Source of the DNA: an uncultured Acetobacteraceae bacterium
GTDB taxonomy: Bacteria > Pseudomonadota > Alphaproteobacteria > Acetobacterales > Acetobacteraceae
Reading direction: 5' to 3'
Assembly: GCA_903918195.1 (NCBI GenBank)
Contig: CAIXDS010000217.1
Span: forward strand, 1-64,000
Length of the DNA: 64,000 bases
Positions 59,995-64,000 of this stretch are shown here, piece after piece (the first letter of the stretch is position 1; each line of letters starts with the position of its first letter). The translations under genes and the position numbers were made by a program. The notes under the pieces were generated by a model. That model was not told the DNA's origin, ran no database searches, and saw only the letters and a list, made by a program, of their open reading frames with translations.

Positions 59995-60840
59995 TCAGGC
60001 CGCCACCAGCTTCTGCTGCTGCTCGCCCAGGCCCTGGATGCCGAGCCGCATCACCTGGCCCGCGCGCAGGAACACCGGCTCGGGTTTGCGGCCCAGGCCG
60101 ACGCCGGCCGGCGTGCCGGTGGCGATGATGTCGCCGGGATGCAGGGTGATGAAATGCGACACGTAGGAGACCAGGGTGCGGACGCCGAAAATCATGTTTT
60201 TGGTGCTGCCGTCCTGCATGCGCTGGCCGTCCACCTCGAGCCACAGGGATAGATTCTGCGGGTCCGGCACTTCTTCTTTCGTGACCAGCCAGGGGCCGGT
60301 GGGGCCGAAAGTGTCGCAGCCCTTGCCCTTGTCCCAGGTGCCGCCGCGCTCGCTTTGGAATTCGCGCTCGCTCACGTCGTTGACGATGCAGTAGCCGGCG
60401 ACGTGGTCCATCGCCTGATCTTCGGAGACGTAGCTGGCGCGGGCGCCGATGACGACGCCCAGTTCCACCTCCCAATCGGTCTTTTTCGAGCCACGCGGGA
60501 TTTTCACGTCGTCGTACGGACCGCTATAGGCGCCGAGCGATTTGAGAAACAGGATCGGCTCCTTCGGCATCCGCCCGCCGGTTTCGGCGGCGTGGTCGGC
60601 GTAGTTCAGGCCGATGCACACGAAGTTCAGCGGCCGGGCGACGCACGGGCCGATGCGGTGCTCGCCGTGCAGGATGGGCAGGGTGTGCGGGTCGATGGCG
60701 AGGAGCTTGGCCAGGCCGTCGGGCGAGATGGCGTGGCCGTCGATGTCGTCCACCACGTCCGACAGGTCGCGGATATGCCCCAGATCGTCCATCAGCCCGG
60801 GCTTCTCGGCGCCCGGGGCGCCCCAGCGCAGCAGCTTCAT
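59995..60840 (-). CDS. fumarylacetoacetate hydrolase family protein (diketo-deoxysugar acid hydrolase type)
   Basis: 281 residues. FAH C-terminal domain metal site: Glu in VELGVVIG (about 126), with PLNFVCIGLNYADHAAETG, ILFLKSLGAYSGPYD, and GTPAGVGLGRKPEP at the end. The N-terminus (MKLLRWGAPGAEKPGLMDD) is typical of 2,4-diketo-3-deoxy-L-fuconate/rhamnonate hydrolases and ureidoglycolate-lyase-like members. With the SDR gene 16 bp upstream on the same strand, an oxidative deoxysugar route producing pyruvate plus lactate/glycolate is likely. Confidence 0.85.
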   Translation of the reverse strand: MKLLRWGAPGAEKPGLMDDLGHIRDLSDVVDDIDGHAISPDGLAKLLAIDPHTLPILHGEHRIGPCVARPLNFVCIGLNYADHAAETGGRMPKEPILFLKSLGAYSGPYDDVKIPRGSKKTDWEVELGVVIGARASYVSEDQAMDHVAGYCIVNDVSEREFQSERGGTWDKGKGCDTFGPTGPWLVTKEEVPDPQNLSLWLEVDGQRMQDGSTKNMIFGVRTLVSYVSHFITLHPGDIIATGTPAGVGLGRKPEPVFLRAGQVMRLGIQGLGEQQQKLVAA

Positions 60841-60856
60841 GGTGTGGTTTTCCTTC

Positions 60857-61606
60857 TCAGAGAGAAATCCCGCCGTCGATGACGACGGCCTGGCCGGTGA
60901 TGAAAATGGCCTCGTCGGAGGCGAGATAAACCGCCAGCGCCGCGATTTCCTCGGGCTGGCCGAGCCTGCCCATCGGCTGGCGTGCCAGGAAGGCGTCACG
61001 CGCCGCTTCCAGCCCGCCGGCGGCGGCGGCGTTGGCGGCGATGCGGTCCTGCAGGCTCGGGGTTTCCACCGTGCCCGGGCAGATCGCGTTGCAGCGTATG
61101 CCCTGTTTCACGAAGTCGGTCGCTACCGATTTGCTCAATCCGATCACCGCCGCCTTGCTGGCGCCGTAGATGGCGCGGTTGGGCAGGGCTTTTACGCTGC
61201 TGGCCACCGAAGCCATGTTCAATACGACGCCATGCCCGCGCGCAATCATGCCAGGGAGAAAAGCCTGGATGGTGCGCAGCATGGAGCGGACGTTGAGGTC
61301 GAAGGCGAAGGTGAATTCCGCCTCGGTCGCGTCCAGCACATTGCCCTGGTGGACGAAGCCGGCCGCGTTGAACAGGATGTCGACCGGGCCGGCGGCGGTG
61401 GCGGCGGTCGTGACGGCGGCGGCATCGAGCACATCCAGCGTGGCCGTGCGCAGGCGGGGGGCGGCGAGGCGGGCGAGCTTTTCGCCGTTCACATCGGTGG
61501 CGATGACGTCGGCGCCCTCGGCGGCAAAGGCGAGCGCGGTCGCCCGCCCGATGCCCTGCGCCGCGGCGGTGACGAAGGCGCGTTTGCCATTCAAGCGGCC
61601 TGCCAT
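60857..61606 (-). CDS. short-chain dehydrogenase/reductase (2-keto-3-deoxy-sugar acid dehydrogenase type)
   Basis: 249 residues. NAD(P) motif TAAAQGIGRA (13-22), NAAG near 84, catalytic Ser/Tyr/Lys in NMASVASS and YGASKAAVIGLSKSVATDF, and the C-terminal TGQAVVIDGGISL. It resembles 2-keto-3-deoxy-L-fuconate dehydrogenases, and its pairing with the FAH-family hydrolase supports that. ATG 61606 fits; the longer frame upstream is unsupported. Other SDR substrates cannot be excluded. Confidence 0.87.
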   Translation of the reverse strand: MAGRLNGKRAFVTAAAQGIGRATALAFAAEGADVIATDVNGEKLARLAAPRLRTATLDVLDAAAVTTAATAAGPVDILFNAAGFVHQGNVLDATEAEFTFAFDLNVRSMLRTIQAFLPGMIARGHGVVLNMASVASSVKALPNRAIYGASKAAVIGLSKSVATDFVKQGIRCNAICPGTVETPSLQDRIAANAAAAGGLEAARDAFLARQPMGRLGQPEEIAALAVYLASDEAIFITGQAVVIDGGISL

Positions 61607-61691
61607 TGCTGGTTTCCTCTCCACGGGAGAAGCCGGCGACCCGAAGGACGGGCGCGGGGCAGGGGAGGGTGGGCGCGGGTGTGGTTGGGTG

Positions 61692-61886
61692 TCAATCGGG
61701 GCTGTATTCTGCCTTCGCTTGCGGCAAGCCCGGATTGGCAGCCCGGATGGCGGCTGCGACCTTGTCGGGGTTGAGGAAAATCGCGTCGGCAAGTTCGGGA
61801 AGCTGGGCGATTGCTTCGGCTGTTGTGGTCTTGCCGGCGCCGTTGATGCCACCGAGGATGACGAGTTGCGGCTGCGGCGCTGTCAC
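61692..61886 (-). pseudogene. truncated zeta-toxin-like kinase
   Basis: 64 residues only. The P-loop LGGINGAGKTTTAE (11-24) and FLNPDKVAAAIRAANPG (37-53) match the N-terminus of zeta-toxin/AAA-type P-loop kinases of about 180-250 residues. The frame stops after AKAEYSPD. No continuation is visible in other frames before the SDR gene. Its ATG overlaps the stop of the upstream small gene (61883-61886). It is probably a remnant that can no longer phosphorylate UDP-sugars. Confidence 0.7.
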
Positions 61887-62119
61887 GTAGTCGCGGCGAC
61901 CCGGGCACGCAGCGCATCGTTGTCGCGCGCGGCCTTGCGTGCGCCCTCAGCCAAACACCGCAGCATGATCGCGCCCAGATCATCCCGCGCCAGGAAAGCC
62001 GCTGCCCGCCCGTCGCCCGATTGCGAGCCGGCCGGTTCGGCCGGTTCCGGCTCGGGCACGACATGTTCGCCCAGGCGTTCCATAACGGCGTCCTCTGTCC
62101 GTTGGCGATGGCTTGACAT
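61883..62119 (-). CDS. putative antitoxin-like partner of the zeta-type kinase
   Basis: 78 residues (MSSHRQRTEDAVMERLGEHV at the start, GAIMLRCLAEGARKAARDND near the end), predicted mainly helical with a Glu/Pro-rich middle. GGGAGAG precedes ATG 62119. It is upstream of, and overlaps by 4 nt, the zeta-like fragment, the order of antitoxin then toxin. No named family recognised. The assignment is by position and the typical orphan-antitoxin situation. Confidence 0.55.
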   Translation of the reverse strand: MSSHRQRTEDAVMERLGEHVVPEPEPAEPAGSQSGDGRAAAFLARDDLGAIMLRCLAEGARKAARDNDALRARVAATT

Positions 62120-62449
62120 AGTCTCTCCCGGCACGGCCTGCCACCCTCGCGGTTGGCCGGCAGGATGCTGCTGGCGGAGATGCGCGGTGCATTTTGGCTT
62201 TGCCCGAGGCTGGTTGGCTGTTTTGTCGCTGGGTGGCAAGTGGGCGGACCCCCGCAACGGGATGGGCGAAGGGGGCAGCGGCAATAGGCGGGAAACGGAC
62301 ACGCGGCGGTGGACCCGGCGGCGCGGCAGGTGTTTCGTTGGTTCGTTATGGTTGCTGGCTGCAGGGGCTACGCCGGGCCTCGGGAACAGGCGGCATGCGC
62401 TACGCTGTTCCGCGCTACGCTTGCTTGACTGCGCCGACGGGAAATTTGC
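62120..62449. other. 330-bp intergenic region
   Basis: Nothing convincing. It contains short direct repeats (CGCTACGCT near 62400-62425) but no ORF with a start signal, no repeat-family stem and no RNA fold that I can support. Confidence 0.45.
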
Positions 62450-63625
62450 TCAACTTGTGGCAGTGCCATCGCAGGTGAGGCGCGGAATGCAAACTTTCGT
62501 TCCATCTAGCACCACATCGAAATGCGCCGCTTCTATCACTGCGATAACGTCACCGTAGTGCATCTGACGATGGTGGTTGGCGCAAAGAGTCATGATATTT
62601 GACGCGGCGAGCGATCCAACTTGCCCGCGGGCAACCGGCATCACGTGATGAGCCTCGACATAAGGTTCGCCATTCGGCTTCCGAAAGCCGATGGCTTGTT
62701 GCCCGTGCGCTTCGCAAAGAAGGCACCTGAAACCGTTCATTTTCTTCGCAAGCGCGCCGACGCGTCCGCGCTCGATCGACCGGCTGACGCGCGACCTCAC
62801 CTCAGGACTGGCCCGCCGATACCGCTCTTCAAGCGCCGCGAGCTGAGCAAAGGTCACGTCACAGTCCGGTGGAGCGGGAAGATCATCGGTCGTCTTACCC
62901 AATAACCGTAGAACGCTGTGAAAATCGCTGCCGCTGATCGGCATTGTGGACGCTTGAAACCCGTCCCTGAGGTAGCGAGACGTCTCAGGCGCCTCTTCCC
63001 GCAGTCGCTCGATCGAAAGCGGTTGATTGATAAGGTTGCATAAGTATCGGATCTGGACTGTCGGCCATCCCGGCTCGCGCTTTTCGCCGTCTGCCCAGAA
63101 TGCGTCGCCCGCGCCTGTAGCGTCGAAGGCCTCGCTTTCAATCTGACAGACAGCGTAGATACCGGACGCAAGCTTGGCTGCGCCAGCAAGCTCTGCGGCG
63201 CTTCGGCGGTCCAAGCCCACCCGAATGACCGCGAGCTGACCCGGCGCAAACTTTTCCCTATCATAAGGTCTGACGCCCCAAGTACCTACATCCGAGCCGG
63301 TTCGAAGAAATCGATCAATCGCCCATTTCTGGGGATTGCAGATCAAGACCCAATATCGATCCTCGAGCTCAGGGGTGATATCTTCGTCCACTACGTCAGA
63401 CCGCCATTTTTTCGGCTCTCGGATTGAATTTGGAGGTTCGGGAAGCTCGTTAGCTAAACCCAGGGCATTTCGAGCATACCAAACCGCAGTCGCGGAGAAC
63501 TCTTCGACATGCTCGACGACAACTTTCTCGTATGACAGGTCGTGACGCCCGGCTTGAAGGAGAGTCTCATAACCGGCTGTGGGCCGAGACCTTAGGTCTC
63601 CCCTCATTTTCGAAAACATGAGCAA
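62450..63625 (-). CDS. EVE-domain HNH endonuclease (type IV restriction-like), 5' end interrupted
   Basis: Current frame 391 residues. Residues about 88-245 form an EVE (PUA-like) modified-base reader: DRYWVLICNPQKWAIDRFL, TWGVRPYDREKFAPGQLAVI, AKLASGIYAVCQIESEAFD. The C-terminus (about 310-375) is an HNH nuclease with a zinc site, MNGFRCLLCEAHG, then EAHHVMPVARG and ASNIMTLCANHHRQMHYGD. EVE-HNH fusions are modification-dependent nucleases that cut DNA with methylated or hydroxymethylated cytosine, a defence against modified phage DNA. The first 14 or so codons come from a 115-bp inserted element. The original 5' part continues at 63707-63810. Whether the restarted protein is active is unknown. 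Confidence 0.83.
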   Translation of the reverse strand: MLMFSKMRGDLRSRPTAGYETLLQAGRHDLSYEKVVVEHVEEFSATAVWYARNALGLANELPEPPNSIREPKKWRSDVVDEDITPELEDRYWVLICNPQKWAIDRFLRTGSDVGTWGVRPYDREKFAPGQLAVIRVGLDRRSAAELAGAAKLASGIYAVCQIESEAFDATGAGDAFWADGEKREPGWPTVQIRYLCNLINQPLSIERLREEAPETSRYLRDGFQASTMPISGSDFHSVLRLLGKTTDDLPAPPDCDVTFAQLAALEERYRRASPEVRSRVSRSIERGRVGALAKKMNGFRCLLCEAHGQQAIGFRKPNGEPYVEAHHVMPVARGQVGSLAASNIMTLCANHHRQMHYGDVIAVIEAAHFDVVLDGTKVCIPRLTCDGTATS

Positions 63626-63706
63626 AATCCGCGGGTTGACTTTATTTGCCGAGTCGGCTTAATACATTGCTATCGTTGAAGAATCTGAAAATGAGGGGAG
63701 ACCTAA
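63592..63706. mobile_element. 115-bp MITE-like element with 20-bp perfect inverted repeats
   Basis: The ends are TTAGGTCTCCCCTCATTTTC (63592-63611) and its exact complement GAAAATGAGGGGAGACCTAA (63687-63706). The element is flanked on both sides by GGGCCGAGACC (63581-63591 and 63707-63717), an 11-bp direct repeat. Because the direct repeat shares CC/GG with the ends, 22-bp arms with a 7-bp duplication are also possible. There is no coding capacity. A palindrome GCCGA-g-TCGGC (63648-63658) lies in the core. Duplications of 10-12 bp are known for IS4-family elements, so an IS4-type transposase could be the mover. Confidence 0.85.
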
Positions 63707-63810
63707 GGGCCGAGACCGCACCACGGCAGCTTCTGCTGCGCCAATCAAGCCCCTTCTTCGGATTTGATCGAGCGTGCGATTCGCGTTACTACCTTCTTCC
63801 GTCTTAGAGC
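63707..63810 (-). pseudogene. 5' remnant of the EVE-HNH gene
   Basis: Reading the minus strand, SNANRTLDQIRRRGLIGAA and EAAVVRSRP are in the same frame as RSRPTAGYETLLQAG on the other side of the element. The joined sequence resembles the N-terminal helical region of HNH-type restriction proteins. The remnant is cut at 63810 by the next element, so the true start is missing. Confidence 0.7.
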
Positions 63811-64000
63811 CTGTTTGAGTCCACGGATTCAATAGCTTGAGCAGAAGGACTTGCAGCGGCGCGTGCGCGGCCCCGTGCGTGCAAGTATGCGGCAAGCACC
63901 GAGCGACAGCTCTCCCGGATCAACGGCTCCTCCGGGCGCGAATGGGGGCCGCGCTGGCGGCTCTAAACACGCAACACATTGAAAATACGGACTCAAACAG
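63811..64000. mobile_element. 190-bp element with IS5-like terminal repeats
   Basis: CTGTTTGAGTCC (63811-63822) and its complement GGACTCAAACAG (63989-64000) are perfect 12-bp ends. TTCAAT matches again further in. GAGC directly precedes the left end (GAGCCTGTTTGA is typical of IS5/IS1031-group ends) and TTA stands before that, fitting a TNA target. No transposase frame fits inside, so it is a non-autonomous derivative or an internally deleted IS. The right boundary coincides with the window end and could extend. Confidence 0.65.

Follow-up and report, generated by a model that had tools for sequence, protein, structure and literature searches.

A probable young IS10-type MITE in a predicted, doubly interrupted EVE-HNH nuclease gene of an Acetobacteraceae genome

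Near one end of the window, the 64,000-nt stretch of Acetobacteraceae DNA analysed here, a minus-strand reading frame (62450-63625, 391 aa) encoding an EVE domain and an HNH motif begins inside a short sequence bounded by inverted repeats. The locus raises the question of whether this sequence is a mobile element that broke a nuclease gene, or one that broke it and also supplies its new start codon, as the initial annotation proposed. The explanation that best accounts for the data, to which we assign a probability of about 90%, is that an IS10-type MITE moved in trans into a modification-dependent nuclease gene that also received a second element, leaving the gene in three pieces and most likely inactive.

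The 117-bp element and its target duplication

The element spans 63591-63707 and is bounded by CTTAGG...CCTAAG, with the full ends CTTAGGTCTCCCC...GGGGAGACCTAAG. Its arms form 21-bp perfect inverted repeats (22 paired bases if one flanking base per side is counted), the left arm (CTTAGGTCTCCCCTCATTTTC, 63591-63611, plus strand) being identical to the right arm (63687-63707) read on the minus strand. The perfect repeats described by the initial annotation are therefore confirmed, with arms of 21 bases rather than 20. With up to 3 mismatches allowed, a 20-mer of the ends matches nothing in the window other than these two arms, and none of 100 shuffled sequences contains it. The element is flanked by an exact 9-bp target duplication, GGCCGAGAC, with copies at 63582-63590 and 63708-63716. 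The 11-bp direct repeat reported initially is rejected, since 9 bp is the length common to 11 of the 12 genomic copies described below; the 11-mer is the 9-mer lengthened by a base from the element's terminus and by another that matches by chance. Element and one duplication copy together measure 126 bp, a multiple of 3, and both sides share one reading frame, in agreement with what had been noted at first.

No transposase gene is present in the 117 bp, each of the six frames reading through at most 39 codons. Short, devoid of a transposase gene, delimited by terminal inverted repeats and represented by dispersed copies with target duplications, the sequence has the features of a MITE. A strong hairpin is predicted from its ends (z -6.7), which would give a 21-bp stem in the transcript. 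A search of 60000-64000 for known structured RNAs at E<=1 returned a sole match, at 60875-60921, below the gathering score. A plus-strand TTGACT/TAATAC pair picked by eye within the element failed the promoter scan.

The nuclease gene and its second insertion

Domain searches of the 391-aa frame identify an EVE domain starting at residue 90 (PF01878, E=2.5e-9, above cut-off) and an HNH motif (PF01844, E=0.0008, slightly short of the curated cut-off). The frame also matches the PADLOC model mREase_IV (E=2e-8), and its HNH region matches PDB entry 6ghc_A (E=1.9e-6). The interrupted gene is accordingly predicted, from these matches, to encode a modification-dependent EVE-HNH nuclease. Its upstream neighbour encodes a REase-ARP/PD-(D/E)XK nuclease, so that the locus looks like a restriction operon.

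The 3' part of the gene that remains beyond the MITE (62450-63590, minus strand) carries the EVE domain and HNH motif. A middle piece in the same frame (63708-63806, minus strand) separates the MITE from a second insertion located 99 bp further up the gene, which the initial annotation had overlooked and which breaks the N-terminal part there too. This second insertion, 198 bp in all, occupies 63807-64000 of the window and extends to 64004 of the contig (L009:808-1005); it has 16-bp perfect inverted ends (GAGCCTGTTTGAGTCC) and a 3-bp repeat, TTA. The first 139 bases of this element are found again at two contig ends, in C232 and C92; the flanks, TTA and TCA, suggest a TNA target of the IS5 type. 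The second element and one repeat copy amount to 201 bp; as both this length and the 126 bp of the MITE are multiples of 3, all three gene pieces share one frame.

When both elements and one repeat copy of each are removed, the joined frame has 488 residues from the start that matches a homologue. Over residues 1-174 it aligns without gaps, at 40% identity, to a Sinorhizobium meliloti plasmid protein, and the alignment also covers the middle piece. The two junctions, after residues 80 and 112, both fall inside this gap-free alignment. The proposal that the MITE splits an EVE-HNH nuclease gene is thus supported by an element-free homologue of the joined frame, and the 115 bp at first taken for the element were not encountered as a conserved part of orthologous genes. 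The Sinorhizobium protein aligned to residues 1-174 has no Pfam match at E<=0.1. The homologue (L071:4665-6589) shares the N-terminal part and the HNH motif; its middle is unlike that of the interrupted gene and its annotation splits it into two overlapping genes, which suggests that sensor domains can be exchanged and that a frameshift may be present. When the homologue was aligned pairwise with the remaining part by MAFFT (28% identity), the differing middles led us to set the result aside.

The 376-aa remaining part has matches in 6 of 100 relatives, namely its own genome and five others over the HNH region only, and in 2 of 72,556 plasmids, neither across 80% of the query. The joined 154-aa N-terminal part matches 2 plasmids and 3 of 385 genomes of the class (its own included, the other two weakly). 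No intact gene combining the N-terminal part, EVE and HNH was found among the relatives, plasmids and class genomes searched.

Each insertion adds one in-frame stop on the minus strand: TGA at 63922-63920 in the second element and TAA at 63661-63659 in the MITE, the latter being the stop for incoming translation already noted in the initial annotation. A 616-residue 'open frame' listed in one results table found no support in this direct reading of the stops. With one in-frame stop per element, the gene is most likely inactive. An IS10-type transposase acting in trans would have moved the MITE, which would have entered the gene by cut-and-paste, the mode general to family IS4, duplicating 9 bp of the target. 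The second small element would have inserted 99 bp away, in an event that could have come before or after the first, and the two stops would cut the 488-codon gene into three same-frame pieces. The locus is most likely a fresh, doubly interrupted pseudogene of an EVE-HNH modification-dependent nuclease, and the 391-codon frame should not be annotated as an intact gene. It documents a restriction gene hit by two different small elements.

Genomic copies and probable relation to the IS10 subgroup

The genome to which the window belongs (6.09 Mb, 410 contigs, 94% complete) contains 29 sites that match the ends at up to 2 mismatches, against none for the pattern read backwards, and 24 of these belong to 12 complete elements, answering the initial suggestion that other copies be sought. 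The elements fall into two subfamilies: subfamily I comprises three 117-bp copies with one variable site (contigs C217, the copy studied here, C87 and C219), and subfamily II nine 116-bp copies with two variable sites (C165, C231 twice, C148 twice, C114, C39, C204 and C339). The subfamilies are about 69% alike over some 120 aligned bases; with the bare 117-bp sequence as query, only its last 41 bases aligned to subfamily II (83%). Exact 9-bp duplications surround 11 of the 12 copies, whereas 10,000 re-pairings scored on unlike flanks gave none. The single copy without one, C148:185-300, could have lost it by recombination between copies or by deletion. Of the other five end sites, three are single ends (at C83, C140 and C271), and the last two bound a 207-bp relative at C203 (L070:1910-2116). 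This relative has perfect ends and flanking 9-mers that agree by eye at 8 of 9 positions without forming an exact repeat, and is apparently an older insertion.

That the twelve copies vary at no more than two sites within either subfamily bears out the early description of the element as MITE-like and young, and the group appears to have spread recently in this genome. The whole-element query matched 3 of 60 relatives, its own genome included and the other two over 25-26 bases only; the 6 further genomes of the genus gave no match. Within the searched data the complete element is restricted to this genome; its kind of ends is spread wider. Three of the six frames of subfamily II lack stops (C114 copy, L016:2961-3076), so that insertions of this subfamily can yield fused frames rather than stops. 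A tRNA-like stretch noticed by eye at the C204 copy received no confirmation from ARAGORN, with or without the element.

A full-length IS with related ends is present in the same genome (C83:38444-39727, 1284 bp), bounded by CTCAGGACTCCCCTCATTTT on one side and CTCACCCATCCCCTCATTT on the other. It has CT ends, is flanked by a 9-bp duplication and encodes a 394-aa transposase that matches PF01609 and, above cut-off, NCBIfam NF033591 ('IS4 family transposase'), with a YREK signature (Y-2-R-3-E-6-K) at residue 275. For the IS10 subgroup, Table 1 of PMC2266710 gives lengths of 1200-1350 bp, CT ends and 9-bp repeats. The MITE shows the CT ends and 9-bp direct repeats, and the related IS the corresponding length and a YREK transposase. 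Judged by size, ends, repeat length and YREK signature, the element fits a young IS10-type MITE (IS10 subgroup, family IS4), which gives a likely affiliation to what the initial annotation could describe only as an element of unfamiliar type.

The MITE and the C83 IS differ over their first 20 bases at 2 positions at the left end and 6 at the right, and a DNA similarity search with the element did not list this IS as similar. Related but non-identical ends occur in the C83 IS, in a transposase fragment of genome G023 and in pieces at the contig ends C140/C271 and C153/C247; these four contig ends seem to stem from another IS of the group, present in several copies and broken by the assembly. 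The full-length IS with the same ends that the initial annotation proposed to look for was thus found only as this 1284-bp relative, none with exactly the MITE's ends being found in the assembly at up to 2 mismatches, and movement of the MITE is ascribed to a transposase acting in trans rather than traced to a particular IS.

Searches beyond this genome returned related ends and no exact parent. The exact 20-mer ends occur in 2 of 397 genomes of the family, its own and G422. The genome_contigs collection, in which G or C was demanded after the 20-mer and from which records of this genome may be absent, gave one stretch, in a Pseudomonadales MAG. The viral_contigs collection gave four contigs, one of which (L100) carries the first 20 bases of subfamily I at one place. 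Genome G422 has, at L093:1265-1330, three tandem copies of a related element's left end (unit of 23 bases) enclosed by a single 9-bp duplication. At L095:474-1520 it has a 1047-bp element, likewise bounded by such ends and a 9-bp duplication, with a 287-codon stop-to-stop frame. Two IMG/VR contigs (L097:3308-3517 and L099:5573-5782) share, between identical flanks, a 210-bp element that has ends of this kind and a 9-bp duplication, indicating that related MITEs also ride on phage-like DNA. No published report of such a MITE, or of the 12-base core of its ends, was found among the papers listed in searches of largely open-access literature; for the core, two papers came up, both on other subjects by their titles. 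The data document a recent burst of an IS10-type MITE and provide a clean example of a young one; the family is new, its kind is already known, and it opens no new mechanism.

Possible starts downstream of the stop and likeness to known systems

The frame remains open to its C-terminal end with EVE and HNH readable, as the initial annotation stated, and start-like codons lie in the element and, better paired, downstream of it, so a shorter product might still be made. Within 63605-63625 on the minus strand, three in-frame candidate restarts (first bases TTG 63625, ATG 63619 and ATG 63607) do exist, as first noted. Their predicted Shine-Dalgarno pairing is average or weak when set against 2430 start-like codons on the minus strand of the window: -3.3 kcal/mol for ATG 63619 (42% of background codons at least as strong), -1.1 kcal/mol for TTG 63625 (82%) and +1.0 kcal/mol for ATG 63607 (96%). 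Re-initiation at ATG 63619, some 40 bases past the stop at 63661-63659, or at TTG 63625, would produce a nuclease without its first 112 residues, and the frame beyond is open through both domains. This outcome is nevertheless very unlikely given the pairing values, the position of ATG 63607 within the 21-bp hairpin stem of the transcript, the lack of any match in a promoter scan of 63400-64000 and the further insertion upstream with its own stop. The claim that the MITE supplies a new start is not supported by these observations. The promoter scan also listed a single terminator-like site, at 63586-63600 on the plus strand, where the left junction lies; with 0.6 such sites expected, this does not exceed the shuffles.

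It is very unlikely that a shorter nuclease arises from the native GTG at 63391, downstream of the MITE, which would yield EVE and HNH without any help from the element. This codon precedes the EVE match and has stronger predicted pairing (-6.0 kcal/mol, a value reached by 16% of the background codons), as does the native in-frame TTG at 63346 (-5.6 kcal/mol); against its use, the Sinorhizobium homologue retains the N-terminal part and no promoter match lies near. That the MITE ends, with an ATG followed by AGGGGAG and open outward, act as a mobile translation start that re-starts truncated genes instead of killing them is highly improbable; were it so, an N-terminally trimmed EVE-HNH nuclease would be made here under altered control. 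A built-in inverted repeat of the gene, be it a hairpin with a regulatory role or a Rickettsia-type palindromic element kept in frame, would agree with the multiple-of-3 length and the strong hairpin and can be practically dismissed, since the Sinorhizobium homologue without it aligns gap-free, the sequence introduces a stop and related elements occupy 11 other sites, at 10 of which the 9-bp duplication is exact.

Insertion of an IS10-type MITE into an already or subsequently broken nuclease gene thus remains the preferred reading, and both partners resemble known systems. Like the VcaM4I-type modification-dependent nucleases as described in PMC7897488, the predicted protein combines an EVE sensor with an HNH nuclease; relative to that description, in the joined frame the EVE domain starts only after some 185 residues, and the gene is interrupted twice. 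The element can be likened, by description, to MITEAba12 (PMC6382973), a non-autonomous, IS-derived mobile element of the MITE kind. With the IS10/Tn10 type it shares CT ends and a 9-bp target duplication, alongside the related 1284-bp YREK IS in the same genome, whereas the MITE itself is reduced to 117 bp without a transposase.
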